Positions 25,526-47,689 of a stretch of 64,000 nt of DNA are shown in pieces. This DNA is from Henricia sp. BOLD:AAB3569 (Eukaryota; Echinodermata; Asteroidea; Spinulosida; Echinasteridae), in NCBI GenBank assembly GCA_037783545.1, contig JBBELK010000293.1, forward strand, positions 62,001 through 126,000, in the 5' to 3' direction. The notes under the pieces were generated by a model. That model was not told the DNA's origin, made no database searches, and saw nothing but the letters and a program-made list of their open reading frames with translations. Every line of letters begins with the position of its first letter. The first letter of the stretch is position 1. The position numbers and the translations under genes were made by a program.

Positions 25526-25599
25526 AGGCCCTCTCACACACGGACAAATCTCGGGCGTGAGCTTCAAGAGTTGGCGATTTCGGGAAACTCTTGGTAAAA

Positions 25600-25935: not shown

Positions 25936-25953
25936 ACAACTCGTATCAAACTT

Positions 25954-26260: not shown

Positions 26261-26261
26261 A

Positions 26262-26345
26262 GCGTGCTCGGGTGAGACTATAACCACGACCTCCTGCATA
26301 CTAGGCAGATGTTTTACCCTTAACCACCGAGCTGGCCGGTGTTGA
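26262..26345 (-). repeat. tRNA-like sequence
   Basis: The minus strand reads GGCCAGCTCGGTGGTTAAGG then CATCTGCCTAGTATGCAGGA, with a plausible D-arm and a TCTGC/GCAGG anticodon stem. The T-loop (GTGGTTATAGTCTCACC) is degenerate. A tRNA pseudogene or SINE head, lying between a MITE and the K2P exon. Confidence 0.5.
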
Positions 26346-26530
26346 ATGGCGGGTTCAAATCACCATTCTTTTGTGCGTGTTCTTTAATCTGTCGATTGTA
26401 AAGTCTAAAATTGTTACAGACTTGTGATTTTTATTATTACCGTACTTGTGATGGACATGACTAGAACCCCGAGGCCTTGTGAATGTGAAGTAGAAGGATA
26501 AGCATCCATGATTACAGCAGTGTGGCTTAC

Positions 26531-27008
26531 CGATAGTTGAGACAACGGTCATGCAGAAGAGAGCCGAGTTCATAAACCCCCAACTGGTGACATTCTGCGA
26601 AGCTTTCTCCGAAATGATCTTCAAGTTGATAGCCAACTCCCTAACAACCGCCTCTTGTTTGGTGGCATTCATGGTACCGTTCATGTTGTTCAAGAGCTCG
26701 TAGAAGAGCGCCACGATAGTCCGGTTAGTCACATCAGTTACCTTGTCTATCTCTTCCTGTCGCAGATCGGCCGCGGGTTCCTCCACGGCTTGGAAGATAG
26801 CAGCTCCAGCGATGAGGTACGAGGTCCACAGGATTACGGGGAGGGAGCCTCGAAGCCAACGGAGCAGACGCGGCCGGGTGCAGCAGCAGCAGCAGCACCA
26901 ACCGGCCGACACGGTGTCCTTACACCCCGAGGCCCGGCTCGACATCCTCCCTGTACGACGCACCAGATATCTATGGACACTCCGTAACATCAGAACACGA
27001 TGCACCAT
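26531..27008 (-). CDS. K2P potassium channel, N-terminal exon (M1, cap, start of pore 1)
   Basis: First coding exon of a two-pore-domain K+ channel, a plasma-membrane leak channel. It reads 159 complete codons plus one base. Residues about 54-76 form the first membrane helix. A 65-residue extracellular cap follows with four N-glycosylation sequons (NRT, NGT, NAT, NVT) and no cysteine, so the cap disulfide of TWIK-type channels is missing. The pore helix starts at WGFMNSALF and the exon stops inside the selectivity filter at TVVSTI plus G. A donor reading GTAAG follows directly; GT sits at 26530-26529. Splitting K2P genes at the first-pore GYG codon is a known, widely conserved intron position. 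The start at 27008 is ATG with an in-frame TAA nine bases upstream; an alternative ATG at residue 22 has a better context (A at -3). Residues 38-43 are six consecutive cysteines. The matching downstream exon is not found to the left in the window. Confidence 0.9.
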
Positions 27009-27549
27009 CCGTAATTATCACATTTACGCCACAGCACACATGTCACATTGAATTAGAACATTGTCGCCTGATGTTCATTTCAATCTGTTGTAAGAGCTAT
27101 GTTGTAGCACCGATATACACGTGGTGTAAATGATTTCAGTTAACTGTGATTGGCTGTACAAGAGACAATGATTTACATAAACCGTGAATTAAACACGAAG
27201 CTAGAATGTTCGACTAACTAGCACGCGCATTTTACCAAGCCAAGGCTAAGCTTTAATGAAAGACGAACGGTGATTTTCGCTCACTAGGTTCTAGATGGAT
27301 ACTGGCCGACATGCTCACTGAGCTCGTCAGATAATTGATGTGATGAACACGCAGACTCAGATGTGCACTGTCACATGCACAACAAGCGACACATACGTCA
27401 ACCACGCTGGCGCATGTGACACAATATAAATAGAGCAATGCATCACAAAGGTACACGACGTGACGGATGGAGCACTCCGATAACAAGCAGGTTCATGTGC
27501 CAAGCCTGTTAATTAGTGTACACCTTCAAACAATCTGACGAAGCGTTTT
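27009..27549 (-). other. 5' flank of the K2P N-terminal exon
   Basis: Upstream side of the minus-strand exon. No convincing minus-strand TATA box. A TATAAATAG string near 27423 points to the + strand. An upstream untranslated exon cannot be excluded. Confidence 0.35.
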
Positions 27550-27583
27550 GGGGGGGGGGGGGGGTGGGGGGGGGGGGGGGGGG
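27550..27583 (+). repeat. Poly-G run with one T
   Basis: Thirty-four bases of G interrupted once by T. It lies about 540 bases upstream of the K2P N-terminal exon as transcribed. Confidence 0.9.
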
Positions 27584-27734
27584 TACTCGAGAGGATAGTG
27601 AATGCCGATGGTTTGATTTATAGTCACCGAGTGGCCCGATAGGCAGCCGAAGCTATGTACTCCCATGTTAGTCCATATTTCATTTCCATTACGATGGGAA
27701 TGAAATAACTAAATACATGTAAAGAGAGGGGCAG

Positions 27735-27790
27735 GATTGAGCACACTAAGCAGATGCTCTGCCAGATGAGTTATGAGGCCCAGTGGTATT
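27735..27790 (-). repeat. Degenerate tRNA-like fragment
   Basis: The minus strand reads CATAACTCATCTGGCAGAGC then ATCTGCTTAGTGTGCTCAAT, resembling the D-arm and anticodon arm of a tRNA-derived repeat without a B-box. Confidence 0.35.
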
Positions 27791-28489
27791 CCTCCCGTTT
27801 CGCGCAAGCAGTTTCTATAATAGCCCAATGATTGTGTACATGAACGATATGTTGCGTTTGCCACCACAAAGGCTGTTAAGAGCACATGTTGGTTGTCAAG
27901 ACTACGGTTACCATAGCAACTGAAAATGGATGCATTATTCGCGTTTTCTCTCATCCATGCAGGTACCGATTCCCGCAGCACCTGTTCCTGATGCGGGTTA
28001 GTGCTATTCCTCTCAAACTACATATATTAATGTACATGTACTTCCTTCTCGTTTTCCACTAGACACCGTGAACTTACGTATACCCCGCCCCCTCCCCCCA
28101 AATACATAAATAAATAAAGGGGAAAAAATACAAAAAAGGAAGAGAAATGTGTTGAATTATAGAAAACCTGGGATAACAAAGCACTTTCAAGACTGTTACG
28201 GTTCAGATATTTTGTCCAGGTCCAAGTACAATGTAGGCCTAGTCGTATTTTAACGAAGTGATTCCCACAGCAATGAAATGTGAACTCTATATAGACATAC
28301 GTAATGTTTACCACTTTTTTTTATTGGTCCAAATTGTATAGGTCAAACTCAAACAATATAGGAATTGAAAGGGGCATAGCACAGAAACGAATTTGAATTT
28401 AAACACGCAAGGATAATTTTTACCATCAGCTAGACAAAACCATCAAGTCTGTAACAAAAGTAACAAAAAAACAAAAAAAAAACCCCAAG
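27791..28489. other. No gene seen
   Basis: Mixed AT-rich sequence; a C-rich CCCCGCCCCCTCCCCCC patch at 28083-28100; no supported coding frame. Confidence 0.45.
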
Positions 28490-29203
28490 CTTCAAGATCG
28501 TAATTGGCAGCGAAATGAATGCCATTATTGGTAATGACTCTTTCGGGAAATTGAAGAGCCTTGGCCCAAAACAATGACGACCTTGCCACTAATGGAAATG
28601 GCAGACGGCTGCTAGCATTATGTGATAATAACAATTTGTTCATCATGAACTAAATGTTTTCAGCGGGAAAAAAATACACACTGCCACCTTGTACATGGGG
28701 ACTGGCTTTAAGAAGAGAACTGACTATATCTTGACAGAAGAATACGTCAAGAAACGATCAAGACAGTGTATAGGGTGTATCGCCAAGCTAGCATTCCGTT
28801 TGTGTCAGACCATCAAATGGTTGTTCCGTTTTGTAAATTACAAACCAAATCTGACGGAGGAGAACAGTGTCGTAAATGCGTACGGATGACAAGGGGAAAA
28901 TCTCTAAACTGGAAGACATTGGTTCAGGATAAACAAGTTGTGACCCAATTTGGTAATGCATCCGAAGATATCCTGAGAGAATCTGGAGAAACTACTTATT
29001 TGTCAAATGTAGATGAAGTTGAAAGAAATATTGCGGAATCCCTCTAATTAGGCAGCAGAAGAAACAGTCGCTAAAAATTGAGTTGTTAAACAGGAGTGGG
29101 AAAATGAAAAAAAATCTTCTCTCTTATTAAAGAACGAAGTACGTGACCCGTAAAGATCCTGCCAGACAGAGAGTTGAAGAATGATACCAGAAAGTTGTCT
29201 AGA

Positions 29204-29270
29204 AAATTAATTAATAATAATTATTAATAATATTAATTTATAATATTAATTATTCATAATAATTATTTCT
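29204..29270. repeat. AT-only palindrome
   Basis: Sixty-six bases of alternating AATTAAT and TAATAATT blocks, able to form a cruciform; it lies within the LINE remnant. Confidence 0.8.
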
Positions 29271-29419
29271 ATGGTAAAAAGGCTAATTTAGCCAAGGATG
29301 CCGAGCAAGAGTTTCGGTTGTTGAAGGACTATAGTGCCACCAAGAAAACACAACTTCTAACTCCATCTAAGAAACTTGAGCAACATTTTAGCGAGTAATT
29401 TGGTCATCATGTTATTGAC

Positions 29420-29455
29420 CCACCCATCGGCGTAGCGAGTGGGGGGTGGGTATTG

Positions 29456-29493
<38 letters not shown>

Positions 29494-29755
29494 AGTGACA
29501 CCCACGCAATATTTATTTTATTCGGTAAATTCATGGCACAGTCGGAAAATCCATGGTGCTGTCGGCCCAACAAGTAATATTTATATTATGTCGGCACCAG
29601 TTGTCCCGCGAGGGCGCTCACCCGTTCACCAGCCCGCCCGCCCCAGCGAGCGACTCCGCGAAGGCCCGGCAGCAGTCGGCAAAATTTGGTCACACCCCCA
29701 ATCAAAATGGTCTAGCTACGCCCCTGCAGCCAAATTCAACACCTAAAGTTCATAG
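29420..29755 (+). repeat. Poly-G-bearing repeat inside a LINE remnant
   Basis: Starts near ATCGGCGTAGCGAGTGGGG with a 34-base G run at 29459-29492 and ends near GGTCTAGCTACGCCCCTGC, so GGCGTAGC and GCTACGCC form inverted ends. The GC-rich middle (about 29600-29680) holds chance open frames. Confidence 0.55.
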
Positions 29756-30299
29756 CACATATTAGCAGACTTCCAAATTCAGCTCTTCAGATACGAGTTC
29801 TTTTCTGCAGACGACCTTATTCCCCAGATCCCTGGAAAAACTACTGAAGGATAAAGGAGGATTCATGGTAGAAACGATCCTGAGCACCCAACCTACTGTA
29901 ACAGTTGATGGGGAATGAAGATGATGATATTGACGATAATTTATGACTTTCAAGCGATTTGAATTCTCCACCAACCCCTGAAGTTGCCTTTACAATTTTA
30001 TTATAAAATACATGATGATTAATTTAATGTTCAACTAAACTAATGAAATATAATGACTCTTTTTGGGATTATGAAAATAAACGGGTCGTGTTAAAACTCA
30101 ATCTCCTCCCGAAATTATAAACAAGATCAAAACAACGTTTATAAACAAAGTTTTGCAGAAGTGTCAAGATGAAGTGACACCGCCTTCCAATTCCTCGGTA
30201 GCTTTATTAGACAGTTATTAGATTATGTCGCCAAAATCAAAACAAATCGACTATACACTGCAGAGAGTCCCGGACACTGTTGAGAGAATTAAGATTTAT

Positions 30300-30437
30300 T
30301 AGGTGATCGGGCCAACAGCCCGATCACCTATTACTCTCGTACGATTTTTAGGTGATCGGAACTCATTCCGATCACCTATTACTATTGTACGATTTCTTTT
30401 TTTTTTTAGGTGATCGGGCCAACAGCCCGATCACCTA
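30300..30437. repeat. Three tandem hairpin modules (AGGTGATCGGG)
   Basis: Hairpins at 30300-30330, 30349-30378 and 30407-30437: AGGTGATCGGGC, a 5-base loop, then the complement. The first two are each followed by ATTACT(C/A)T(C/T)GTACGATTT. They form the left end of the array that follows. Confidence 0.85.
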
Positions 30438-32155
30438 TTACTCTCGTACGATTTCTTTGTTTTTTTTCTTTTTCTTCTTCCACTCAAACGTTTCCAGAGC
30501 TTTTCTTCAAAACGGTTCAAGCTATCAACTTAAAACTTGGTAGGAACATCAACCCCAATGTGAAGATGTGCATACAAGTGTGACGTCATTGTGACGTCAT
30601 TAGGTATCAAATTACAAACCAAAAATGACCAAAATATGCATGTTTTAAAATGCTTCCGTCTGGAAAACCACGTGACCCATGATCTTCGTATTTGACAGGC
30701 TTATATATCAGATCATGGCCTACAATTTTCTTCGTGTGGGCATTTTCATCTGACCCTTCCTTCTGGGGTCAATCTGAGGTCAAAGTTCAACGAAAACGAA
30801 AATCTCAATTTTTGCACTTATTGAGCAACAATGCCCATCAAACCAAGCTGAATCTTTAAGAAACTAAGTACAGGCATAGGTCCTATGGCAGACTTTCACC
30901 AACGTGTTTAATATTATGATGGCATCAAGCGTGACGTCATCGTGACGTCATCAAGTATCAAATTACACCTCCCAAAAAACCAAAATATGCATATTTTAAA
31001 ATGCTTCCGTCTCGAAAACCACGTGACCCAGGATCTTCGTATTTGGCAGGTTTATAGATGACATTCTGTTCTACAACTTTCTTTGTGTGGGCATTGTCAT
31101 CTGACCCTTCCTTCTGGGGTCAATTGGAGGTCAAAGTTCAACGAAAACGGAAATCTCAGTTTTTACACTTACCAGTAACAATGCCCATCAAACCAAACTG
31201 AATCGTTAGTAAATTAGATACAGACATAGGCCCTATGACAGACTTTCACCAGCATGTATAGTATCATGATGGCATCAAGTGTGACGTAATTATGACGTCA
31301 TCAGGTGTCAAATTACAAAAATTCAAAGGTTATTATTTTCAAAATTCATATCTCAAGAACCGTAATAGATACTTGAACAATTCTTTCACAACATGATAAG
31401 TCTAAATGAACTGAACAAATCATACGATGTCATGACCCCTGTGTGACGCCTACTTCCGGTCCAAACCGGAAGTTGTTCGAAAATGTGCAATTTTTTAGCA
31501 ATTTGAATGAAAATAGATTCAAAGTGGTAGTGAATTTGACCATATTTCTACGGAACGAAATGTTTCCACACATGTGGACCTTTTGACTATACCATTGGTG
31601 ACGTCATTACATGGACGGTGGTTACGTAATGTGGTGTCAAATCACGCAAATTTGGAGCTGAGATGTTTTAAAATGCTGTATCTTGAAAACTACAACAGAT
31701 ATTGGTATGATTCCTTCGCCACATTTAAGAACTTGATGTTCAACATATTGTTCAACAATTTGTGCACAAAATTGTGACGTCATGATGTCGTCACAGGTGT
31801 CACATTACAAGATTTCAAAGGTTATTATTTCAACAATTCATATCTCAAAACGGTGCAAGCTATCAACCCCCAGCTATGGCGGATATGCAGGGAGGAGATA
31901 TTAGTTACCAGATTAGTGTATACAGCAGCCGATTTCACGAAACTTTACGCAATTGCGCAAGTCCACTTACGCCATAAGTTATTGCGCAAGTAATGGCGTA
32001 AATGGACTTGCGCAATTGCGTAAAGTTTCGTGAAATCGGCTGCTGAACTTCCATTTTTGCCATTCCACAGGTGATAACAACGTCTGAAATTCATCACAAA
32101 ATTTTCATTTAACCCGATCACCTGGCGTTTGTAACAACAAACGTCATACCTCTAG
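30438..32155 (+). mobile_element. Helitron/Helentron-like non-autonomous unit 1
   Basis: After a T-rich leader, the body runs from CACTCAAACGTTTCCAGAGC (30480) to CTAG (32152-32155). The 3' end has CCCGATCACCT (complement of the AGGTGATCGGG at the left), then a hairpin GGCGTTTGT...ACAAACGTC (32124-32145), then ten bases ending CTAG followed by T. The body has two about 350-base direct subrepeats (near 30670 and 31020). A 120-base palindrome lies at 31924-32043. No helicase or Rep sequence is present. The 67-residue frame at 31574 is not a gene. Confidence 0.65.
31924..32043. repeat. Palindrome inside unit 1
   Basis: AGCAGCCGATTTCACGAAAC and its complement flank GCAATTGCGCAAGTCCACTT and its complement: arms of about 50 bases, nearly perfect. 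Confidence 0.85.
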
Positions 32156-34728
32156 TTTTTTTTTTTTTTTCTTCTTTTTCCACTCAAACGTTTCCAGAGC
32201 TTTTCTTCAAAACGGTTCAAGCTATCAACTTGAAACTTGGTAGGAACATCAATCCCAATGTGAAGGTGTGCACTGAAGTGTGACGTCATTGTGACGTCAT
32301 CGGGTATCAAATTACAACCCAAATATGACTAAAATATGCATGTTTTAAAATGCTTCCGTCTAGAAAACCACGTGACCCATGATCTTCGTATTTGACAGGC
32401 TTATATATCAGATCATGACCTACAATTTTCTTCGTGTGGGCATTTTCATCTGACCCTTCCTTCTGGGGTCAATCTGAGGTCAAAGTTCAACGAAAACGAA
32501 AATCTCAATTTTTGCACTTATTGAGCAACAATGCCCATCAAACCAAGCTGAATCTTTAAGTAACTAGGTACAGGCATAGGTCCTATGGCAGACTTTCACC
32601 AGCGTGTATAATATTATGATGGCATCAAGCGTGACGTCATCGTGACGTCATCAAGTATCAAATTACACCCCCCAAAAAACCAAAATATGCATATTTTAAA
32701 ATTCTTCCGTCTTGAAAACCACGTGACCCATGATCTTCGTATTTGGCAGGTTTATAGATGACATTCTGTTCTACAATTTTCTTTGTGTGGGCATTGTCAT
32801 CTGACCCTTCCTTCTGGGGTCAATTGGAGGTCAAAGTTCAACGAAACTGAGAATCTCAGTTTTTACACTTACCAGCAACAATGCCCATCAAACCAAGCTG
32901 AATCGTTAGTAAATTAGATACAGACATAGGCCCTACGGCAGACTTTCACCAGAATGTATAGTATCATGATGGCATCAAGTGTGACGTAATCATGACGTCA
33001 TCAGGTGTCAAAATACAAAAATTCAAAGGTTATTATTTCCAAAATTCATATCTCAAGAACCGTATAAGATACTTGAACAATTCTTTCACAACATGATAAG
33101 TCTAAATGAACTGAACAAATCATACGATGTCATGACCCCTGTGTGACGCCTACTTCCGGTCCAAACCGGAAGTTGTTCGAAAATGTGCATTTTTTAAGCG
33201 TTTTGAATGCAATAGATTCAAAGTGGTAGTGAATTTGACCATATTTCTACGGAACGAAATGTTTCCACACATGTGGACTTCTTGACTATACCATTGGTGA
33301 CGTCATCACATGGACGGTAGTTACGTAATGTGGTGTCAAAATACGCAAATTTGGAGCTGACTTGTTTAAAAATGCTGTATCTTGAGAACTACAGCAGATA
33401 TTTGCATGATTCTTTCGCCACATTTAAGAACATGATGTTTATCAAATTGTTGAACAATTTGTACACATTGTGACGTCATGATATCGTCACAGGTGTCAAA
33501 TTACAAAAATTAAATGGTTATTATTTCAAAAATTCATATCTCAAGAATCGTAATAGATACTTGAACAATTCTTTCATAGCATGATAGGTCGCAATGAACT
33601 GAACAAATCATACAATGGCATGACCCCTGTGTGATCCAAACCTCCGGTCCAAACCGGAAGACGTTCAAAAATGTACACTTTTTTAGCACTTTGAATGCAA
33701 ATAGAGCCAAAGTGGTAGGGAATTTGACCATAGTTCTACGGAACGAAATGTTCCCTCACATGTGGACTTTATGACTACATATATACCACTGATGACGTCA
33801 TCACGTGCACGGTGGTTACGTAATGTGGAGAAATTATTTGTTAGGTCCCTTGATAATTAAGCTAACTCAGTCGTTTGAGGGCGCTATGCCAAGCCTCCAC
33901 TAATCTGACGATTTGCGCCCATATATAGTGCTCGACTTATAACAATAGAACTTGTATCTAGGCGGCCTGTCTCGGGTCAGAGGTCATAATGTATCTTTTT
34001 AAGGAGGATGTACGTGCGCGTGTAGTGAATAAGTCAGACAGACAAGACATAATAAGCAGGGCTTGATTTACAACCGAGAAAATTGGACTTTTGAAGATGT
34101 AAAACTGCTAGTTTCCGTGGCATCATCGCCAGGAAAGTTGAATGAACACTTGATAGCACAAGGACATTTCCATTTGGTGACTTAGCTGTTGTATCTTGGG
34201 TGTAATTATGTACGGCTCGCCTTACTCGCGGACCAGAGTAAATATGTCTTCTCCCCGAAAACTGTGAATGTGACATGCTGAAAATCATTGCTGTGTTGGA
34301 AATAAATGGACATGGTGGACCGCAACTCAAGTTGACCGGAGCGTCAGTTTAGTCTAGATGCAATTGAACCCCAACTCCCCACACGGCGACAGTAATATGA
34401 TCTCAAATGACAACATCTTTAGAACTGTAATAGATATTGAAAAGATTATTTCACCACATATACATGTCAAAACTTGTTCTTCAGTAGATACTTGAACAAT
34501 CTGTGCACACAATAGTAACGTTATGATGAGATTGACAATTATGACGTCATCAGATACACAATTTTAGCGTTGAATAGTCAGAGTCATGTCTTGAGAATTC
34601 AAATACTTTTTCAACATCAAACAACTCAAGCTTTCAAACAATCTCAAAACTCTGTCGTCATCATCATTTCAATGTTTATGTCACCCGATCACCTTGCGTT
34701 TGTAAAAAACACAAACGCGAAGCTCTAG
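32156..34728 (+). mobile_element. Helitron/Helentron-like non-autonomous unit 2
   Basis: Starts with poly-T and CACTCAAACGTTTCCAGAGC at 32180. It follows unit 1 with moderate divergence, then has an extra subrepeat (about 33485-33830), then about 560 bases not found in units 1 and 3 (33830-34390). It ends CCCGATCACCT, the perfect hairpin GCGTTTGT...ACAAACGC, and GAAGCTCTAG. It lacks the internal palindrome of units 1 and 3. The 98-residue minus frame at 34034-34330 falls in the unit-specific segment and is not recognised. Confidence 0.65.
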
Positions 34729-36394
34729 TTTTTTTTTTTTTTTTTTTTTCTTTTTCTTTTTCCACTCAAACGTTTCCAGAGGTTTTCTTCAAAACGGTTC
34801 AAGCTATCAACTTAAAACTTGGTAGGAACATCAACCCCAATGTGAAGATGTGCATACAAGTGTGACGTCATTGTGACGTCATTAGGTATCAAATTACAAA
34901 CCAAAAATGACCAAAATATGCATGTTTTAAAATGCTTCCGTTTGGAAAACCACGTGACCCATGATCTTCGTATTTGACAGGCTTATATATCAGATCATGG
35001 CCTACAATTTTCTTCGTGTGGGCATATTCATCTGACCCTTCTTTCTGGGGTCAATCTGAGGTCAAAGTTCAACGAAAACGAAAATCTCAATTTTTGCACT
35101 TATTGAGCAACAATGCCCATCAAACCAAGCTGAATCTTTAAGAAACTAAGTACAGGCATAGGTCCTATAGCAGACTTTCACCAGCGTGTTTAATATTATG
35201 ATGGCATCAAGCGTGACGTCATCGTGACGTCATCAAGTATCAAATTACACCTCCCAAAAAACCAAAATATGCATATTTTAAAATGCTTCCGTCTCGAAAA
35301 CCACGTGACCCAGGATCTTCGTATTTGGCAGGTTTATAGATGACATTCTGTGCTACAACTTTCTTTGTGTGGGCATTTTCATCTGACCCTTCCTTCTGGG
35401 GTCAATTGGAGGTCAAAGTTCAACGAAAACGGAAATCTCAGTTTTTACACTTACCAGTAACAATGCCCATCAAACCAAGCTGAATCGTTAGTAAATTAGA
35501 TACAGACATAGGCCCTACAGCAGACTTTCACCAGCATGTATAGTATCATGATGGCATCAAGTGTGACGTAATAATGACGTCATCAGGTGTCAAATTACAA
35601 AAATTCAAAGGTTATTATTTTCAAAATTCATATCTCAAGAACCGTAATAGATACTTGAACAATTCTTTCACAACATGATAAGTCTAAATGAACTGAACAA
35701 ATCATACGATGTCATGACCCCTGTGTGACGCCTACTTCCGGTCCAAACCGGAAGTTGTTCGAAAATGTGCAATTTTTTTGCATTTTGAATGCAAATAGAT
35801 TCAAAGTGGTAGTGAATTTGACCATATTTCTACGGAACGAAATGTTTCCACACATGTGGACCTTTTGACTATACCATTGGTGACGTCATTACATGGACGG
35901 TGGTTACGTAATGTGGTGTCAAATCACGCAAATTTGGAGCTGAGATGTTTTAAAATGCTGTATCTTGAAAACTACAACAGATATTGGTATGATTCCTTCG
36001 CCACATTTAAGAACTTGATGTTCAACATATTGTTCAACAATTTGTGCACAAAATTGTGACGTCATGATGTCGTCACAGGTGTCACATTACAAGATTTCAA
36101 AGGTTATTATTTCAACAATTCATATCTCAAAACGGTGCAAGCTATCAACCCCCAGCTATTGCGGATATGCAGGGAGGAGATATTAGTTACCGGATTAGTG
36201 TATACAGCAGCCGATTTCACGAAACTTTACGCAATTGCGCAAGTCCACTTAGTAATGGCGTAAGTTTCGTGAAATCGGCTGCTGAACTTCCATTTTTGCC
36301 ATTCCACAGGTGATAACAACGTCTGAAATTCATCACAAAATGTTCACTTAACCCGATCACCTGGCGTTTGTAACAACAAACGTCATACCTCTAG
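34729..36394 (+). mobile_element. Helitron/Helentron-like non-autonomous unit 3, near-copy of unit 1
   Basis: Almost identical to unit 1 at a constant offset of 4282 bases over most of its length; the 67-codon frame at 35856 is identical in translation to that at 31574. It ends with the same GGCGTTTGT hairpin and CTAG (36391-36394), followed by TTGCC. The internal palindrome is shortened (36206-36282). Unit 1 plus unit 2 therefore behaves as a larger tandem period with unit 3 as the start of the second round. Confidence 0.65.
36206..36282. repeat. Shortened palindrome inside unit 3
   Basis: The left arm is intact through CAAGTCCACTTA. The central stretch and much of the inner right arm are deleted, and the outer right arm GTTTCGTGAAATCGGCTGCT is retained. 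Confidence 0.8.
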
Positions 36395-36463
36395 TTGCCT
36401 TTTGATATTGTCTTGTAGTTTAATTGTGGTAATGAATACAGTACACTCATTGAGCCCTCCTAT

Positions 36464-36555
36464 CACTATGAGCAACTAACAATAGAAATTGGGCACACAC
36501 CATTGTTAATAACAATGGTTTGTGCCAAATTTCCATTGTTAGTTGCTCATAGTGT
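36464..36555. repeat. CACTATGAGCAACTAACAAT palindrome
   Basis: A near-perfect 92-base palindrome centred on CCATTGTTAATAACAATGG. Other copies: 58831-58917 and a split copy 57959-58010 with 58452-58492. Confidence 0.9.
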
Positions 36556-36859
36556 ACCTTGTGCTATTTTAAAGGAGCATGACCAGAGTTTCTGGAAAAT
36601 AGTTTTCGATGTAACTTACCAATATTATCAAGTAACTCCCATACACACCTCCCATGTCCCAAAAACCCTATTTCTATACCGTTGTATCCACCAGGCTAAC
36701 TGTATATTATTATTGATTGTGTATTTTTGATAGATTTGATACAGAACTGTGGAAAAAAAAATGAACCTTGAACCTTGAACAGAATTGGACAAACTTTTGA
36801 CAGTACCGCTTCTATCCATTTGAAATATTTAAATTGATCAATTTAAATATTGAAGCAAT

Positions 36860-37072
36860 TAGTTTTCTGCGTGTTTCGCACGGATAGCTTGACTGCGTGT
36901 GGTGTACTAACACCCTCTTTCACATGCATACTTGGTACAGTGTATCCACTTGACCGGACTAATTTTTTTTGCTATGTGGAGCACGCGGCAGGTGTGAAGT
37001 ACAAAATCAATATTTTGTTCACCGTATGAGGGAATGGCACAAAGCAACCACAGTGTTGGTTGCTAGGCATTG
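36860..37072 (+). repeat. GCGTCTGGTGT-family repeat, left half before LINE insertion
   Basis: Carries GCGTGTTTCGCACGG, GCACGCGGCAGGTGTGAAG and CAAAATCAATATTTTG as in the other copies. It is broken at TTGCTAGGCATTGG by the LINE at 37073. Confidence 0.65.
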
Positions 37073-38029
37073 GCAGAAACCTAAAGAAGAAACCCATCAG
37101 TATAACTTACACTCTTGGTGACAATGTACTTAAGAGGGTAACAGTCCAAGAGGATCTCGGAATTTTTATTGATAGCAAGCTAACCTTTATTCCCCATGTT
37201 GACTCCGTAATTAAAAAGGCTAATCGTATGTGTGGTTTAATTTGGCGTAACTTCCGCTCACTGAAAAACGAACATGTCCTCCGTACTTTATATTGCTCAC
37301 TAATTAGACCCCATCTAGAGTATTGTACAGTAGTGTTTAATTCTATCTCTGCTTACCAGGCTCACAGGATTGAGAGAGTTCAGTGTCGCTTTCTCAACTT
37401 CATGCATATAGGAACTTATCTACCGGTAATGCTAATTATGTCAACATTGAATACCTTGATCTTTGTGACTTGTACAGACTCCCAACACTAAAACACAAAA
37501 GAGATGTCAATGATTGTTTGTTTTTGTATAAACATTTCCACAACTTTTTCTCTACCACAGATTCCAACCCATTTAGCTTGCATACTCAAGCAATACGGAC
37601 AAGGCATGCACACAAACACATCCTCCACGTCCCATGGAGTCGCATTGAGGTGACAAAGCGTGGCTTTATCTCAAGGATTTCGTCCACTTATAATGGGCTC
37701 CATGGGAAATGTGATGTGTTTGGTGCACCTTCTCTTAACTCCTTTCGCAAACAGGTTAACCATGCTCTTTTTAGTTAAATCTACATGTACGTACAATTTG
37801 TGTAAAACATTTATTCTATTTATTTTAATTTTATTTTTTATATAAAAATTGTTTTTAATTTATTTTCTTAATTTTTATTTTGTTCAGAATGTTTAGTTGT
37901 TGGTCATTCTTTTTGTTTAATTTGTGTATTTTTTTTTTTAATGCTTGAAATGCTTTATTTATGTATACAGAACTTTTACTTGGCGGTCCTTCCGCTGTTG
38001 GATGTGGTGAATAAATAAATAAATAAATA
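37073..38029 (+). mobile_element. 5'-truncated LINE inserted in an older repeat
   Basis: Encodes reverse-transcriptase C-terminal sequence in two frames. The first reads VQEDLGIFIDSKLTFIPHVDSV through SLIRPHLEYCTVVFN and IERVQCRFLNFM. The second, shifted near 37400-37470, reads IEYLDLCDLYRLPTLKHKRDVNDCLFLYK and ends APSLNSFRKQVNHALF. The layout is jockey-like. The 3' UTR ends GGCGGTCC...GTTGGATGTGGTG followed by (AATA)n at 38010-38028. The element splits a GCGTCTGGTGT-family repeat whose halves lie at 36860-37072 and 38030-38118. The frameshift makes the copy inactive. Confidence 0.8.
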
Positions 38030-38118
38030 GACCACGTAGCGACAACAGCGCAGTATGCGACTTTATAAACTGCATCTTTGACGAAGTCAGGGCGCCAGAC
38101 ATTATGCACATGTTAAAA
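38030..38118 (+). repeat. GCGTCTGGTGT-family repeat, right half after LINE insertion
   Basis: Resumes at ACCACGTAGCGACAACAGCG and ends GGGCGCCAGACATTATGC. A few bases of the central GCGTGC block are missing at the insertion site. Confidence 0.65.
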
Positions 38119-39089
38119 AATTTAAGCAATTGTGGTTGTCATTATAATTTTTTGGTGCTGAAGTATTCAAACTACGAGGTGGAATTTGTAAACATAGAAA
38201 CTGGTGAGACAATTTAATTTAACAAAAATTGTGCTATAAGCCCTATAAAAATTATTTCAAGAGATTTCTTTGAACTATGAGAATTTCTAATACCCTAGTC
38301 ACACAAGAGGCGGAATGAGCCGGAATGCCGTCGTTCGTATTCCAGGATATTCGAAGTGCATTATAAAAATTATGACTGCATTCCAAACATTTGGGCCCAT
38401 TCTTGGGACTGGACCGAATGTTTTGCTCATGCAAAGGGAGGTATCTCCTCCCCCAGCCCCCCAGTCGCCCTACCACTTGAAATTTGGCAAACGGAGAAAA
38501 ATACGGTGGCATGGCTTTTCACATAGAACTTTCATTGTTTATTGTTTATTTTATTTTATTTTTGTTAATTTGTAATTTTCCCCCAAGAAAACTGTATAAA
38601 GTGCCGTTTCTCTGGTGTAAAGTACGCCGCTGGGAAGATGTGTATTATATACAGCGTCAAGACTTGCTTTTGGCGTCAAAACAATTAAGTGCCTTTAATA
38701 TATTTTACACCTTTCAAGTTACAGCATCACTTCACAACCGCGAAATGGCAGGAAATCCATTAGACAAAATCCAGACGCCTCTCTGCAAATCCCGGTGTCT
38801 TGGGGCTTAACACCTTAGAATCTTGCAAGTATTTTATAAACCACCGGGCACGCATGAAATAGCAAAACAAGACAACTCTAAAGCACTGTATACCTTTGTG
38901 AAATCGGTCGTGAAATTCATCGGCCGTCTTTCTCTTAATCCATGGCCGTTGAACACGCTCTATTTCCTTCCTTCTAAAGTGGGTTAAAACCATGTACAAC
39001 GAAATATTGCATTAAAGCATTCAACTCGACTATTAATATCAAGTTTCTGATTTTCATGTACATTTTTCTAAGTTTTAAATCCCTAAACA
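38119..39089. other. No gene seen
   Basis: Open frames at 38252-38810 overlap on both strands without splice support or a family match. Confidence 0.4.
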
Positions 39090-39380
39090 TTTGCAGTTAT
39101 CTAAAATTTTACTACACGAGTTGACAAAAAAAATCCAACTAAAAGTGTTGGTAGCAATGGTAACAAACGCCACAAGAAATTGTCCCTTGTAAAATGGTAC
39201 CTTTGTGGGAGGAATAGCCAACTGAAGGTGCTTTTAGAAACAAATGTCTGCAGACAATTTTTTACTATTCATTCAACACAAAAAGTATTACTGCATCTAA
39301 TGGCTGAAATTCTATACAATGCAGTTTATCAACATTATTCTCTAGTTATGTAAGGCTGTTCCTGTTTTAAAAGTTTTCTA
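39090..39380 (+). repeat. CACGAGTTGACAAAAAAAATCC dispersed repeat
   Basis: TTTTACTACACGAGTTGAC and TAAAAGTGTTGGTAGCAATG, continuing to a second block (ATTACTGCATCTAATGGCTG, CTAGTTATGTAAGGCTG). Related stretches: 80-200, 49975-50290 (reversed), 57015-57110 and 59215-59689. Confidence 0.65.
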
Positions 39381-39569
39381 TAATCATGTAGGCCTAATCA
39401 TGTAATCATTGGTAATCTCGAAAATAAGAAATGTTCACAGATTTACGCCAAACTTACACAATATAAACATGATGACCGTAGAAAACCTCCCCTGAAATGG
39501 TTTTGTCTGAAGTGCTATAGTCTTTGAGAAATGAGTAAAACAATTAGTTTTCGTCTCATGAGACGAAAA

Positions 39570-39620
39570 ATCAATTCGCCCCAAAACCATTTCGCCCCAA
39601 ACCACTTCGCCCGAGTGCAA
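39570..39620 (+). repeat. CATTTCGCCCCAAA tandem repeat, short array
   Basis: TTCGCCCCAAAACCATTTCG, then CCCCAAACCACTTCGCCCG; the same unit as 12800-12960 with about two copies. Confidence 0.7.
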
Positions 39621-39639
39621 ACCATTTTTTGACTGTTTT

Positions 39640-40391
39640 CTCAAAAGTTAGACGAAGTATACGGAGCTGGTTTTTGCTCAGGTTGGTTTTAATCATGCAT
39701 ATCTTCAATCATACAGGGTGATAAAACTATTTGTAACATGTATACTATCATGTATACTATCTTTAAATTTACGTCCAGTATTGCACTATATGTTGCGGAT
39801 AAATTTGATTTTGAAAAATAAATACGACAACACGATAATTATTTTGCCCATACATGTAGGAGCTCTCTACTGGAAATATCCAGCGACTATCGGCACCCAC
39901 TCGGAATCATGCTCGAAGTAGGCCTAATGTGCTGCAATTGCAGACGGTCCATGTAGTTAATTAGCTATGGTGCAACATCCCATAACGCAGACGTGACAGT
40001 AACGCGAAAAACAAGTAAATAAATTGAACCGTCTTCTGATCGAGAGTCGAACTATTCCATCAGTTGAACCGAAAAACCAGCAGCGCAATTTCCCCTGTGG
40101 TTGCGCCGTTAGTTAACGCGTTCCGACAGGCACCGTGGCGAGCTCGGGGTGTCATCGCATACGAGACAAATTTAAATTTAAACGGGAACTTACAAATTGA
40201 AACAGTGCTCTGGCTTCCGGATCCCTGGTCATTAGGCAAATTGGATGTTTTGCTTCATAGTAATTAATTCTCAAAACATGATACATAAATTCCACTTTTC
40301 TTAGAAATGACAGCACACCACGCTTCGTGATTTCACACGATAAATACTATCCATTACAGTCACTTTACAATAATTGATGACAGAAATTATA
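39640..40391. other. No gene seen
   Basis: A 67-codon frame at 40064-40267 (ends LGKLDVLLHSN) lies in an otherwise unremarkable stretch. GTTTTGCTTCATAGTAATTA at its end resembles the sequence at 40827-40856. Confidence 0.35.
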
Positions 40392-40467
40392 CTGGACCTA
40401 TCAGGATTCGAACCCGAGGCCTCTGATTCAGGGCAGTTGCTCAGTGCCAGCTGAGCTATAAGGCACC
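40392..40467 (-). repeat. tRNA-like sequence (pseudogene or SINE head)
   Basis: The minus strand reads GGTGCCTTATAGCTCAGCTG, a D-arm GCTC/GAGC, and a T-arm with B-box CGGGTTCGAATCC. The acceptor ends pair only partly, and the anticodon stem is at most three pairs, so a working tRNA is unlikely. Confidence 0.6.
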
Positions 40468-40536
40468 ATGGTATACTCCCTCAGGTTTTCCCTACGAATC
40501 AATTTTTTGATGTTACATGGGAGCACAACCTGTACC

Positions 40537-40608
40537 TTTTAGCTCAGATGGTAGAGCATCTGCCCGATGAGTCAAAGGTCTCGGGTTCGAATCCCGATAA
40601 GACTTAAG
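40537..40608 (+). repeat. tRNA-like sequence, divergent partner
   Basis: TTTTAGCTCAGATGGTAGAG gives a sound D-arm, and TCGGGTTCGAATCCCGA a perfect T-arm. The anticodon arm (TCTGCCCGATGAGTCAAAGG) does not close and the acceptor stem does not pair. It points away from 40392-40467. Confidence 0.6.
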
Positions 40609-41478
40609 TTCTTTCATTCCACGTCCGTTTCATTTCAATGGTGGTACCAAATATTGCGATATTTTCGTTATAACAATTTGGTACATGTATGTCATTTTGA
40701 TTTTTATATCATGGAAATTAAGTATACTTAGGCCTACACTCAGTACTTGATTCTATTATTTCAAGGTATACCAAAACTAATATCCACGAAATGCGTATAT
40801 AAAGTCAGTTTGTCACTCGAAAAGTGTTTTGCTTTACAGTAATTAATGAAGCAAAACAGTATGACCAGTCTAGGCAAGGCTTTGTATTTGGTGGGGTACA
40901 ATTGCGGACGGTGGCTTCAATTTTAGACGTCGTTGCTTCATCCAGTGTATATATATCGATGAAAAGGACCGGTTTGTTTGCTGCCACCAAGAGTCTCAAA
41001 AGTCCCCGAAAATGCTGACTGGTACCCGGACCAATTTATTTTGACTAGACATAGGCTGGATCCGAATTAGTGGCTTTGCCCTTTACCCTTTTCAAATTGT
41101 TACACACCCTTTTGAAAATTAACGGTTATGCGCTCCTAACAATAAATGCATGACGTAATGCCTAGTGCTACTTTAACCACGGTAGTCCACAGTAGCCGGT
41201 CCTCATATTCAGTCGTTGTATGTGGAATATGTGGAGCGGGAACCAGTCTAGTTTCGTCATTGTTCGCTTCACCGCCGAAAGAGGGCGCTATACCGCTTGT
41301 ACACGGGGATGACGCGAGCGTTAAGTTTGCACGCTTGTAAATGAACGATTTTTTAGTGGAGTGGCATATAAAATGGTTCCTTATTTAGTACCTGAAGCGT
41401 CTTTTCGGAAAGAATCGGTTAGTTGATCATAGCTTCAGACCTTGTGTGCAAAACATATGAGACAGGCTGAACATTTTA
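40609..41478. other. No gene seen
   Basis: A 28-base inverted word at 40827-40857 (GTTTTGCTTT ... AATGAAGCAAAAC). Opposing 64-codon frames at 40805-41018 have no recognised product. 41270-41335 is CpG-richer with AGAGGGCGCTATACC. Confidence 0.35.
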
Positions 41479-41563
41479 CGGTCGAGTTGACCCGCAAACG
41501 GTCGAGTTGACCCGCAAACGGTCGAGTTGACCCGCAAACGGTCGAGTTGACCCGCAAACGGTG
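41479..41563 (+). repeat. 20-bp minisatellite, four units
   Basis: GGTCGAGTTGACCCGCAAAC repeats four times with no visible difference, then decays to GGTGAGGTTGA. Each unit holds a GTCGAGTTGAC near-palindrome. Confidence 0.92.
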
Positions 41564-41636
41564 AGGTTGATTTACATAATAAATTCCTGATCCGATCGGC
41601 ATGTAATGTTTGGGTCACACGTCCTCGCACGTTTTT

Positions 41637-41945
41637 AGGTCAATTGTTCTCCACCCTCCCCCTTCCCCTCCCCCCGTGCGCGTGCTGCCCCACCCGAGAG
41701 GTGGATTTGTCACTTTTCGGGTGACAGAATCCCCACTCCTGGGGAATACTTTAGGAGACGAAAATCCCCACCCTCGGGTGCAAAACATGGGGTAACCCAA
41801 AGCATGCACACCTTGCTATAATGCACAGAAATTTGTATATAAATGAGTCAAAGTCCCTACCCTGGGGCACGAAAAGGTGACCAAACCCCCACCTACGGGG
41901 TGGGGCTGCACGAGGGGAGGGGGACATTTGATAGGTGCATTACAG
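41637..41945. repeat. C/G-rich repeat with CACCCTCGGGTG motifs
   Basis: GTCAATTGTTCTCCACCCTC at the left and GAGGGGGACATTTGATAGG at the right are inverted. The middle repeats CCCCAC-CC-TGGGG hairpins (ACTCCTGGGGA, CCTACGGGGTGGGG). Relatives are the fragment at 5755-5790 and 57300-57375. Confidence 0.6.
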
Positions 41946-41954
41946 TATTTCGCC

Positions 41955-42440
41955 ATATTTTATCGAAAAGTTGGCATTCATTACTTTTAGGACACCCCCT
42001 TTTTTAAAATTAATTTGACAGCCGTAAAACTAACTTTTTTGCACTAAAGACACTTTTGTGGAAACAACCAACTCTTCTTCATTCCTGTAACAGTTTTCCA
42101 ACTTTTGGACGAGAATTCTTTAAAAAAAATACAATACAATCAGAGACCGGGTATTAAACTTGAAACTTTCTTAGCCAATAAAAAACGGCCTTTCATGCTA
42201 TACCGAGCATAAAACGCCATCTTGAATTTGTTCAACCTTTTATTTGGCCAGTTATTCCCGTTTTTACAGCACAATTTCCCTCAAATCAAAACCCTGCCCC
42301 GTTTTCACAAAGATAATCTTGTCAATGCAATCTGAAGAAAAGGGTCAAGAGTGGTTTTATAAAAAAATGGCACTTTTAATCTCTTATATGGAACGGTGTC
42401 CTAAAAGTTACGAATGCCAAATAGTTTTTGAATACCAACC
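41955..42440. mobile_element. Degenerate foldback
   Basis: AGTTGGCATTCATTACTTTT, then AGGACACC (near 41970) is complemented by GGTGTCCTAAAAGTTACGAA (near 42398). The 97-residue frame at 42244-42537 overlaps the right arm and is doubtful as a gene. Confidence 0.55.
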
Positions 42441-42774
42441 CTTTTTACCCTATATAGCTCATTGCCTTACCTTTCCTTTTCTTCTCCGTTTCGTGTCCAA
42501 GAAACGCACCAAATCCTTTTGTGTCTTACCGGAATAAATAATCCAAAAACGAACACAACTTCGTGCATTGTAGCGCTATCAAACGTGACTCCACAAGGCT
42601 CTTTCATTTTTCCGTTTGATGTGTCCAAATTCCGGGCCCGTTTCGGATGATTTTCCAACTGCCTGAGGAACATTGTACATGTTTATGTTCAGTTAACACA
42701 TGGGTATTTTTTCATATACATTGAACACGGATTTGGGTAAATTTATATATTGGAATCGATAGCTTATTCAATTC

Positions 42775-43033
42775 TAAGATATACTTCCCACTGACACTTC
42801 CGTCGCAAATGTTGCATTTCTGAGATAAATAAATGATAAAATTACTGCATAAAGTAATGCACAAAATGACGCGGCGAGCGGTCTGTGCGTAAGCGTGACA
42901 ACAGAGGGCGCTGCGCGCGCGCGTGAATGGTTATCTTGTGCACTAACTGAAGGCAATTTTTGAAGAAGAAAACGTGATTTTTCTACAGAAAAGCAACATT
43001 TGCGACAAAAGTGCAAGTGGGAAGTATATCTTA
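42775..43033. mobile_element. Foldback with TAAGATATACTTCCCACT ends
   Basis: TAAGATATACTTCCCACTG at the left, AGTGGGAAGTATATCTTA at the right (imperfect by two bases); GTCGCAAATGTTGC pairs with GCAACATTTGCGAC. The centre has an AGAGGGCGCTGCGCGCGCGC island. Confidence 0.85.
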
Positions 43034-43454
43034 AAATTACATTATGTGTTGATTCCAGGAGGTAATTTCCTTAAAATCTTTGTTCAATGTATACGAAAAA
43101 AATACCAAAACGGGTACTCCACGCTCAGAAAATAACGTACCCCGAACTGCTGCAAAACACGGCATATCTCCACTTCTGTTTCACCAAATGACACATGAAG
43201 CAAAATGGTTGCATTTACTGTTACACACGCATGATAAGCATGCATCAGTAAACCCGATAAATTTAGGAATCTACGATTAGTTAAAAAAAGCATCCTGGTA
43301 AATGCTTGCTCAAATCTTTTGTTAATCCCATAGAAAAGGAATGTACATGTACATATTCTTTGCACGATATTTCTCAGGAGTACGCGCTACATTCCTTTAT
43401 ACCTCAACACACTCTTCCGTTGTTGGCGCACAAACACCGCCCCAAACACCAAAA

Positions 43455-43555
43455 AAGAATTCCTTTAAAATTCCTTGGATGTTTGAGACACAATGGGGAA
43501 ACAATGGAAGGGGAGGTACCCTCTGTCACGTCAGATCGTGATTTTTTTATCAAAT
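43455..43555 (+). repeat. AATTCCTTTAAAATT dispersed repeat
   Basis: AAAGAATTCCTTTAAAATTC, then GTTTGAGACACAATGGGG and TACCCTCTGTCACGTCAGAT; first of two neighbouring copies. Confidence 0.6.
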
Positions 43556-43627
43556 GTTTAAAAAAAAAAAGGATAATGGTCCGTCGCAGTCAACACATTA
43601 TTGCCTTTTAACGCACCAACCCTAAAA

Positions 43628-43712
43628 ACTGAAAAGAATTCCTTTAAAATTTCTTAGATGTTTCAGACACAAAGAAGGGGTGTGCTGCCCTCTGTCAAAT
43701 ATCGTGCTCCAT
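43628..43712 (+). repeat. AATTCCTTTAAAATT dispersed repeat, second neighbour
   Basis: GAAAAGAATTCCTTTAAAAT, GTTTCAGACACAAAGAAGGG and CCTCTGTCAAATATCGTGC. Confidence 0.6.
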
Positions 43713-43944
43713 AAAGAACAATAATATTGCTTTTTGCGTACGTACAAGTACAGTCGTGATGCGACCCTGGGACCCCAGTGTCTTTGCTCGTACTCACCGC
43801 CCTCACACAGGGCGCTAGGCCAAGGACAAGCTGATGTGCCTCCACAAGGGGCGTTCGAGATTGTTTACATCGTGTAACACGGGGGTTTTCACCGGGGAAA
43901 GCCCCCAGAAGATGCAAAACGAACAAAACGGGCTTTCGCTTTGA

Positions 43945-44115
43945 ATAGACAGCCGAAGTGTGACGTGCGTTGCCATGGCAATTGGATCTAAACTATCATG
44001 GCCGTCGGGAAAAGTACCATTGGAAAAGCACTGGGACACGGTTGAGTGATTTTTTGTTTAGATCCAATTGCCTAGGCAACCAACAAAAGGTGACGTATTC
44101 ACTTCGGCAGTCTAT
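43945..44115. mobile_element. TA-flanked GACAGCCGAAG foldback
   Basis: ATAGACAGCCGAAGTGTGAC at the left, CACTTCGGCAGTCTAT at the right; GTTGCCATGGCAATTGGATC pairs with GATCCAATTGCCTAGGCAAC. Confidence 0.85.
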
Positions 44116-44208
44116 TCTGGTAACACAGGTCAAAGGTTGTTGCCAGGCGGGGCTTTTATAAACACCGTCATAGTTTGACTTACGAGGAAAAATTAACCCG
44201 GCGCCATT

Positions 44209-44465
44209 CGAAGTTCGTCGGAAAATTCCGTGGCTTCCAAATTTGCCGACAAATCAGGAGTACACCAGAGCAGGGTGTCCCAACAGCCACGGTTATAGGA
44301 GCAGGCAGGAAGCCCGAGCACCGTTTTCCCTACATCCTTAAATTTCTCGGCCATTTTCCGGCGAAAGTCTGGCAATTTTGCAGGACAAGTGCGGAATATA
44401 GACAGTTTGGAGCATGCAAAATTTGAAGTTCGTCGGAAAATTCCTTGACTTCCAAATTTGCCGAC
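44209..44465 (+). repeat. Two direct copies of a 44-bp sequence
   Basis: GAAGTTCGTCGGAAAATTCC followed by TTCCAAATTTGCCGACA occurs at 44209-44252 and 44424-44465. The 170 bases between (CATCCTTAAATTTCTCGGCC) contain shorter echoes. Confidence 0.75.
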
Positions 44466-44711
44466 ATTTGGACCACACTTTGGTCAACGGCCGTCCTAAA
44501 GTCTGATCATGCCCACAAGTCAGCTGTGTTTCCCACTTTGCACTCATGGCGCCGCCCGCATCGGCACGGTCCACATTTGTGGCTTGAATAGCCAGTGCAC
44601 TCTCTATAGTTTACTATATATAACTATATATTTACTACATACAGTTGTATGAAAAAGAAGACACTATACACAACCGGACGAAAATGGCTTCCGTTCTGTT
44701 TGAAAAATATA

Positions 44712-45196
44712 AAATAAACTCCTCAAAAAAAGTTCGGAAACACAAGTTTGACTGACAATGTATCTCTTGTTACCTAGTCAATTTCCTTGATTTTTGTTAT
44801 CATTGGAAAGCCCTGTTATTCCTCTTTACAATGATGTGTCGTTTGCGGGATGTGCAGCACAGCTGAATACGGGGTTGGCAGCTTGGGGTGGGTGTAAAGT
44901 GAAATGTCACAAAATTCATTGCTATTTGCAAAAGGTGTATTGACACATTCCCATCCCCCAAGCAAAAGGGGGACTGCACTGTATGACAACAGCGGTGAAT
45001 TTTGTGACATTTCACTTTACACCCACCCCCATATTGAGCACATCCCGCAATTGCTTAATCATAACAAATGACACATCATTGTAAAAAGGAATAGCAGGGC
45101 TTTCCAATGATACCAAATTCAAAGAAAACGACTTGGTAACAAGAGAGAAATTGTCAGTCAAACTAGAGTTTCCGAACCTTTTTTGAGGAATTTATA
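44712..45196. mobile_element. TATAAACTCCTC foldback
   Basis: Long inverted arms meeting near 44950. Ends are ATAAACTCCTCAAAAAAAGT and its complement. Internal landmarks are ATCATTGGAAAGCCCTGTTA and GTGAAATGTCACAAAATTCA, each present in both orientations. Non-coding. Confidence 0.85.
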
Positions 45197-45275
45197 CAAA
45201 GAACAGGAATTATAACCCAATGAAAAGTGGATACGAACTTCATAAAGAATGGCAATTGCAATATATCTTTTTGTA

Positions 45276-45330
45276 TAAGCGCCGCCATTTTGTCCGAGTG
45301 ACCTATTTTGCATATAACTGCTTGAATAAT
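45276..45330 (+). repeat. End fragment of the GGGCGCCGCCATTTTG foldback
   Basis: TAAGCGCCGCCATTTTGTCC followed by diverged sequence; no right arm. Confidence 0.5.
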
Positions 45331-46060
45331 GCACTATGGTAGCACACGTATTTGGAAAAAAGTCATACGCAAAACAATGTCACTCTTTACATACCTTGCA
45401 ACACAGTTTATACAATGTAAAAATATGTGAACCCACAAAGAAAATACATCTAAATATATCATTTATAAATAAGCCACTGAATTCACGATCACGTTTACTG
45501 ACTGAATGACAACATTGGCAAACGAGTTTTAAAATTTGGTTTCTACGTCTAAAAAACAATGAAGACAAGTCCGATGTTTGAATTCCAGACCAATGTATCG
45601 TTTCTATGTGGCCAAGAAAATTAAGACCCGTGCACCTTTGAGAAAGATACTTGTTTGTTCTGAATGCAGCGGTTACATTATTATCATCATCATTTATAAT
45701 TTTTAGCGTCAGATTGCGTCATAGACGTTTTGTAGTCGCTTTTTAATTGACCACCATGCACCGCAGTGAACACTCTATTATGACGCATTTTGCTCGTTTT
45801 ACCCATTTGAGAGCCCCACAACAATGGGCAAAAAACCGTTACTCGCTCAAGGACGTTCAGAGGGCTCAAATTTTGAGTTTAGAGCAGAATATGATAAATT
45901 TGGTCTAGAAAAAGCTTATTATACATTTTATATACAACATGTTATGAATTTAAAAAATAATTAAAAAGCTTTTTCATTAAACTGTAATACGAAAATTATT
46001 TAGGTATTTTTATTTTAAGAGTTCCTAATATACAAATTAAATATATTGCCCTCGTTGTTC
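45331..46060. other. No gene seen
   Basis: AT-rich, apparently single-copy, 3' of the K2P C-terminal exon as transcribed; a minus-strand 62-codon frame at 45380-45568 is unsupported. Confidence 0.45.
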
Positions 46061-46231
46061 GTGACCTTGGTCATGAATATGCACATTCGCATTATATAGC
46101 ATACAAACTAAAAACCTTTGTTTTAACTCCCCAAACAAGCTCCAAATGGGATTTTTATGAATGTAACTGAGTATATTGGATTTATAGCATAGATTTCATT
46201 AATAAAAATCCCAAATAAGGGGCCTTTTAAG
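46061..46231 (-). mobile_element. Short copy of the 802-1941 element
   Basis: Reverse-oriented terminal 170 bases (AATAAGGGGCC at the right end, TGACCTTGGTCATGAATATG at the left end), matching the first 170 bases of the 802 and 9217 copies. It lies about 200 bases downstream of the K2P stop codon. Confidence 0.65.
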
Positions 46232-46438
46232 CCGAAACTGCGTGGTAATGTCAAATAATCTGACTTTGCTACACCAAAAATGACCTAACTTTTGATTCGC
46301 TTGACGGATTTTGATGCAATAAAGCCTATTTTTCATGTAAGAATATTCCCTATCAGGATCCGGGTGAACATAGATTCTGATTTGATTTGATTTGCCTAAT
46401 TTGATCTGGCCATTTGTTTCGGGGGAAACCCTACTACT

Positions 46439-47337
46439 TTAAAAGCCGACTTTACCAGCCACCCTGGACACAAGGCAAATCACTTTAGCTTGGACGAGAG
46501 CTATGCACATGGACATGACAGAAAGACCCACGATCGTGTAGACCAGACATCCGACAAAGGACGGGAGGTCCATGTAATGTTTGATCGGTACAAAATCACC
46601 GAATCCGATGGTGGTTAGTGTGATAAAGGTAAAGTATAGTGCATCGCCGTAATACCATTCCTCTACGTGTGCAATCATCAAGGCACCAAGGAATGTGTAC
46701 ACGAATAGGATTGCAGCGACTAGGAGTACGGGTACGTGTCTCTGCATAGTATCTTGGTCACCCATTGGTTGAACCTCGTCGGGTAAGATGCTTGAAGACA
46801 TTGCGAGTACCTGGGAACATTTCCCATCGTCCCGAGCGTAACCCAGGTTGGTCTGGCCCGGTAATCTCTCGTTTACCACTGTAGACACTGCGGTGCCGGC
46901 CCGGTGCCTGTCCTCGGCTGTCTGCGTCTGCCACTCGCCGTCAACCGAAGCTCTTCTGGAGTTAGGCTGGCTTCCCCGTACGCTCTCTGCGGTGTTCGTG
47001 AAGACACCGAGACTCAGCCGCATGTCCACGAGGCTCTCCCCGGTCCCTGGCGGTTCCAGTCCCGCCACCATCCCATGGCCCGGTCGGTAGGACAGACCGT
47101 TCTGGTGGTTATAGTCTCCGACGTTCCCGTTGTTCCGTGCCCGAGATTCCCTTCGTTTTTGATCCGACCGTCTTGTCCTTGATAAACAGCAATATCTCTG
47201 CGATATGTAGACCACGCACCGAGCTAGGAGAGCACCGATATCAGCGAGGAACGTGAGCGTGAGTGGGATACCAATTAATGAGTAGATGACGATGACAATC
47301 CGACCCCACGCCGTCAGAGGTACCACATCACCGTAAC
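46439..47337 (-). CDS. K2P potassium channel, C-terminal exon (pore 1 to stop)
   Basis: Last coding exon of a two-pore-domain K+ channel: 298 residues after a split glycine codon, ending in TAA. The acceptor is TCTTCCTACAG just above 47337. In order: YGD completes the first filter (TIGYG when joined to a TIG exon), M2 (about residues 12-38), a cytosolic loop of about 150 residues rich in Arg, Ser and Gly, M3 (about 202-223), pore helix 2 with filter TTIGFGD (about 226-247), M4 (about 258-283) and a tail of only 15 residues. A long M2-M3 loop with a short tail is the TRESK/KCNK18 layout. The M4 sequence with VGLSVMSMC resembles invertebrate TWiK channels, so I call it TWiK/KCNK18-like without a symbol. 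NSRRASVD in the loop is a good basophilic-kinase site. No upstream exon 1 is visible between 47338 and 64000. Confidence 0.94.
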
Positions 47338-47574
47338 CTGTAGGAAGATCGAAAAACGACACAATTACACCATATCGCGTGTTACTAGAGTTAAAGTAGT
47401 GTCCCATTGTTGAGATTTTGATACCATATATCATGTGCCATATTTGTATAATACCCTTTTGAATGTTCGCAACATTGGCGCAGCCTGGTTCTAACGTTTT
47501 GTGTCTTCTCAAGGTCGACATCGGATTTTATATATAATTATGCCCAAAATTGATAATCAATTCCTCTCCCCTTA

Positions 47575-47685
47575 ACCTGAAATAAGTCCTTTGAAATAAA
47601 TTACGCGCATGTTTTGAGACACAATAAGAACACAATGGATGGGCTGTCTGCCCCATCTGCAACATATTAAGCACCAAATGGTTGG
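47575..47685 (+). repeat. AATTCCTTTAAAATT-like repeat, diverged copy
   Basis: GTCCTTTGAAATAAATTACG, ATGTTTTGAGACACAATAAG, CAATGGATGGGCTGTCTGCC. It lies upstream of the K2P C-terminal exon, in the presumed intron. Confidence 0.45.
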
Positions 47686-47689
47686 CATG

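Follow-up and report, generated by a model that had tools for sequence, protein, structure and literature searches.

The window, by which we mean the whole stretch of 64,000 bases that was analysed (C293:62001-126000, in an assembly of 740.7 Mb), carries two minus-strand exons that both encode K2P channel sequence; in the numbering used below they are gene 4 exon 1 and gene 3 exon 2. Gene 4 exon 1 lies at 26531..27008 of the window (C293:89008-88531), has its first in-frame ATG at 27008 and encodes 159 residues covering the TM1 region and the first pore helix as far as the first base of the filter glycine. Read on the minus strand from 27008 to 26531, it runs M...SALFCMTVVSTI, the peptide ending in ...ALFCMTVVSTI, followed by one G and then by a GTAAGC donor (GTAAGCCA). 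Gene 3 exon 2 lies at 46439..47337 (C293:109337-108439) and comprises 899 bases including the stop codon. Its acceptor at 47337 reads ATCTTCCTACAG before the cut and GTTACGGTGATG after it, so that the exon opens GT-TAC-GGT-GAT, of which the first two bases complete a glycine that is followed by YGDVVP; the frame then stays open through the remainder of the first filter, a long loop and the second pore (TTIGFGD) to the stop at 46439-46441.

A sequence-only reading of the window had described one exon that breaks off at a GTAAG donor part-way through the first-filter glycine codon, a second that starts within that codon with the two bases that complete the glycine before YGD, and a minus-strand arrangement in which the C-terminal exon is upstream of the N-terminal one. 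Both exon boundaries are read directly from the sequence, and the geometry and frames are as it claimed. The rest of the window consists of the in-window parts of two minus-strand introns, that of gene 4 (1..26530, part of 27,339 bases) and that of gene 3 (47338..64000, part of 19,421 bases), and of the interval, assigned to no strand, between the gene 3 stop and gene 4's first in-frame ATG (27009..46438), in which no K2P filter exon was found.

Partner exons on both sides of the window and on a second contig

Among 50 listed matches to the Ion_trans_2 pore family in the 740.7 Mb assembly, seven fall on C293, all on the minus strand (two in the window, one to its left and four to its right), and a parallel set of seven falls on a second contig, C69. 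Read along its minus strand, C293 carries exon 2 of gene 1 and then exons 1 and 2 of gene 2, of gene 3 and of gene 4 in turn. Gene 3 exon 1, with a donor motif, was located outside the window at C293:129239-128759 (window 67239-66759), ending 2,759 bases past its edge, and gene 4 exon 2, with an acceptor motif, was located at C293:61191-60404 (window about -809 to -1596), beginning 810 bases before the window. The suggestion that the two exons come from tandem paralogues whose partners lie beyond the window, which the sequence-only reading had taken as the simplest biological one, was thus borne out on each side, an exon 1 turning up to the right and an exon 2 to the left, both just past the edges, as that reading had itself asked for as proof of ordinary tandem paralogues; the introns that such paralogues were calculated to require, above about 17 kb and 26 kb, agree with the rebuilt lengths of 19,421 bases for gene 3 and 27,339 bases for gene 4 (21,359 and 29,210 bases, respectively, on C69).

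When the exons were joined, the open frames encoded 459 residues for gene 3 and 421 for gene 4 on C293, and 459 and 420 on C69. Two stretches of each protein matched PF07885 (Ion_trans_2), with 108.6 bits for gene 3 and 90.3 bits for gene 4 against a cut-off of 22.5, and the filter signature is present in both pores of each, the first reading TIGYGD in gene 3 and TIGYGF in gene 4 and the second TTIGFGD in both genes. The best matches among solved structures were K2P channels (KCNK proteins), with E-values of 9.2e-21 for gene 3 and 8.3e-23 for gene 4; the top structures for the two genes were TASK-1/KCNK3, TASK-3/KCNK9, THIK-1/KCNK13, TRAAK/KCNK4 and TREK-1/KCNK2, all of them distant by sequence from genes 3 and 4. 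Judged from these motifs and matches, genes 3 and 4 are most simply taken as predicted background potassium channels.

Upstream of gene 3 on the same strand are a complete gene 2 (exon 1, C293:146622-146106; exon 2, C293:144903-144401; both minus, separated by an intron of 1,202 bases) and exon 2 of gene 1, likewise on the minus strand, at C293:153148-152325 and C69:466282-465576. Neighbouring, related genes thus lie on one strand, the minus strand of both C293 and C69, which carries both exons of each of genes 2, 3 and 4 as well as exon 2 of gene 1. A donor-pattern search and tblastn, the latter with exon 1 peptides of the cluster and also with residues 1-146 of P0008 (the Acanthaster planci protein that best matches exon 2 of gene 1), revealed no exon 1 of gene 1 in either C293:32001-176000 or C69:360001-480000; the P0008 query returned gene 4 exon 1 as its sole match in these intervals. 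Past ...LGNRFWQC, the frame of gene 1 exon 2 has one ending on C293 and another on C69, which points either to a further intron near there or to allelic divergence of the C-terminus.

C69 agrees with C293 in the strand and order of gene 1 exon 2 and of the whole of genes 2, 3 and 4. When C293 was aligned with C69, the best colinear chain had 74 pieces with 80,637 aligned bases at a mean identity of 94.9%, took in all seven exon points tested and covered 48,186 bases of the 64,000-base window, with kilobase-scale gaps on one contig or the other. From its likeness to C293, C69 is apparently the other haplotype; if it were a recent segmental duplication, the argument from order would be served nearly as well. 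An assembly error as the cause of the exon order was rejected, since these exons follow one another on C69 just as they do on C293, and with the same orientation. The alignment also contains one-sided gaps in the interval from gene 3 to gene 4, 6.5 kb present on C293 (C293:92300-98779) and 9.0 kb present on C69 (near C293:90916), which are probably insertions or deletions between haplotypes.

Separate orthologues of genes 3 and 4 in other starfish

The rebuilt gene 3 protein, in a search that scored the 7,997 candidates sharing most words, matched A. planci P0002 with 61% identity and Patiria miniata P0003 with 59% identity, each over 90% of the query. The rebuilt gene 4 protein matched A. planci P0055 (54% identity, 94% of the query covered) and P. 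miniata P0056 (50% identity, 99% covered). In their source database, P0002 and P0055 are both named "TWiK family of potassium channels protein 7-like", P0003 is named "TWiK family of potassium channels protein 18-like, partial" and P0056 "potassium channel subfamily K member 18-like". Judged by these nearest proteins, the host is probably a sea star or a close relative. The starfish K2P proteins differ from genes 3 and 4 in the lengths of the N-terminus and of the M2-M3 loop. After the first filter of gene 4, GYGD is replaced by GYGF on both contigs (C293:61191; C69:366343), and at this position the A. planci orthologue has GYGY and the P. miniata orthologue YGF.

When the exons were compared individually, each followed its own gene. 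The two best matches of gene 3 exon 1 were P0002 and P0003 (145 and 159 bits, compared with 38.5 and 33.1 bits for P0055 and P0056), as were those of gene 3 exon 2 (327 and 319 bits, compared with 48.5 and 38.9). Conversely, P0055 and P0056 were the two best matches of gene 4 exon 1 (153 and 144 bits, compared with 24.6 and 25.8 bits for P0002 and P0003) and of gene 4 exon 2 (228 and 221 bits, compared with 51.2 and 51.6). The two exons in the window therefore match different orthologue pairs, and a single gene with reversed exons was rejected on this ground. A chimeric composition, with the exon at 26531-27008 combined with that at 46439-47337, is seen in none of the four best orthologues from starfish. 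The alignments are unbroken across the junction glycine in P0002, P0003 and P0055; P0056 is without 18 residues across the junction, at about residue 130 and immediately ahead of YGF, among them the end of the pore helix and the first-filter TIG, and this gap in its sequence may be a gene-model error at the donor.

P0002 and P0055 are each listed with an A. planci contig size of 1,594,712, and P0003 and P0056 each with a P. miniata contig size of 21,754,841. Because the listed contig size is the same for both proteins in each species, the orthologues of genes 3 and 4 are probably linked in A. planci and in P. miniata. The listed contig size for P0008 differs (3,110,692), so the evidence for linkage in A. 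planci covers less than the whole cluster.

Conservation of this degree also bears on whether one or both genes might be decaying duplicates with very long introns. The intron lengths themselves, and the kilobase-scale differences in length between C293 and C69, would fit such decay, which we nonetheless regard as extremely improbable given that the joined frames are open on both contigs with both filter motifs present, and that identity with two other starfish species is 50-61% over 90-99% of the query.

A shared intron position and the apparent exon order

An intron in the filter glycine is old and widely shared among animal K2P genes. To the 21 loci fetched (8 + 13), which are part of the 50 listed matches, we added L011 and the window, and for the phase count we took the loci with a first-filter start, omitting those with the second filter only, with another channel type or with no hit. 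An AG acceptor lies inside the first-filter glycine codon at 12 of 12 sites (four in the cluster and eight elsewhere), or at 13 of 13 when the C69 copy of gene 1 is added, a set in which L001 and L002 look like alleles and L004 and L005 are the gene 1 copies of the two contigs. T-I precedes the first-filter glycine in the genomic frame at none of these 13 sites, compared with uninterrupted T-I-G at all ten second-filter sites; one of the latter, L035, also has an AG there, by chance, inside continuous coding sequence. The acceptor scan is blind to an intron placed one base later in the glycine codon. At L001, L002, L031 and L032, the Pfam match starts 8-10 profile positions before the 39-40 seen at the other sites; these four also have no T-I ahead of the glycine, and at L031 a stop lies 11 codons upstream.

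The junction is thus common to the K2P genes seen in this genome, and a "phase match" would appear between any pair of them. Since all first-filter sites examined share the glycine-codon acceptor, the phase match says nothing about which exons belong together, and phase matching at the K2P filter glycine is unusable for pairing exons.

We therefore interpret the locus, with a probability of about 97%, as a tandem cluster of co-oriented K2P genes with long introns that is clipped at both ends by the window, the two exons in the window belonging to two neighbouring genes. Points that count against this reading are the missing exon 1 of gene 1, the 18 residues absent from P0056 and the different contig size listed for P0008. 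Of the cluster's exons the window holds just two, exon 2 of gene 3 and exon 1 of gene 4, and this clipped view looks reversed. In each gene the intron would interrupt the first-filter glycine codon, and an intron at one shared position puts any exon 1 in phase with any exon 2. Positions, splice-site motifs, the order on both contigs and orthology are observed here; we infer in addition that each gene would be expressed and that ordinary linear splicing would yield a K2P subunit, a pair of which would make up a potassium leak channel.

The arrangement can be accounted for without a back-splice, a rearrangement or a misassembly, the options that the sequence-only reading had put forward beside tandem paralogues under its heading of a "wrong order". 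A single K2P gene whose exons were mis-ordered by an assembly error or by a real rearrangement would explain why the two exons are in phase and complementary. We consider that explanation extremely unlikely: the phase match is common to all first-filter sites examined, each exon has its own partner on its other side, the orthologue matches place the two exons in different genes, and C69 has the same order, so that "wrong order", rearrangement and mis-ordered assembly all lack support. The same two observations, of different genes and of an identical order on C69, leave the back-splice unsupported as well. More broadly, if the exon order were used as it stands, back-splicing or trans-splicing would produce an RNA, circular or chimeric, with a junction between 26531 and 47337; the sole point in favour is that this junction would be in frame, a fit expected for any pair of cluster genes, and we consider such joining most unlikely because linear partners exist for both exons and the chimeric composition is absent from the four best starfish orthologues.

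A different kind of chimera would be compatible with the tandem cluster. As the genes are co-oriented and their filter-glycine phase is interchangeable, read-through transcripts in which exon 1 of one gene is spliced to exon 2 of the next would be in frame and could give channels with mixed half-pores; we see only a slight chance that this occurs. The apparent anomaly in exon order is explained as an effect of the window's edges and has little import beyond annotation, for which gene models of three echinoderm-type K2P genes of one cluster have been gained.

In a Pfam scan of six open frames from the non-coding stretches, none had a match at E 0.01. Two of the frames without a match at that threshold, at 13486-14421 (plus strand, in the gene 4 intron) and at 59979-60482 (minus strand, in the gene 3 intron), share a near-identical peptide, SKLAMLK-IRDCVTQKHMNTLM-SLVMPSLDYCCTVWGDRYASHNTVL..., and look like copies of one dispersed element, perhaps the end of a retrotransposon.
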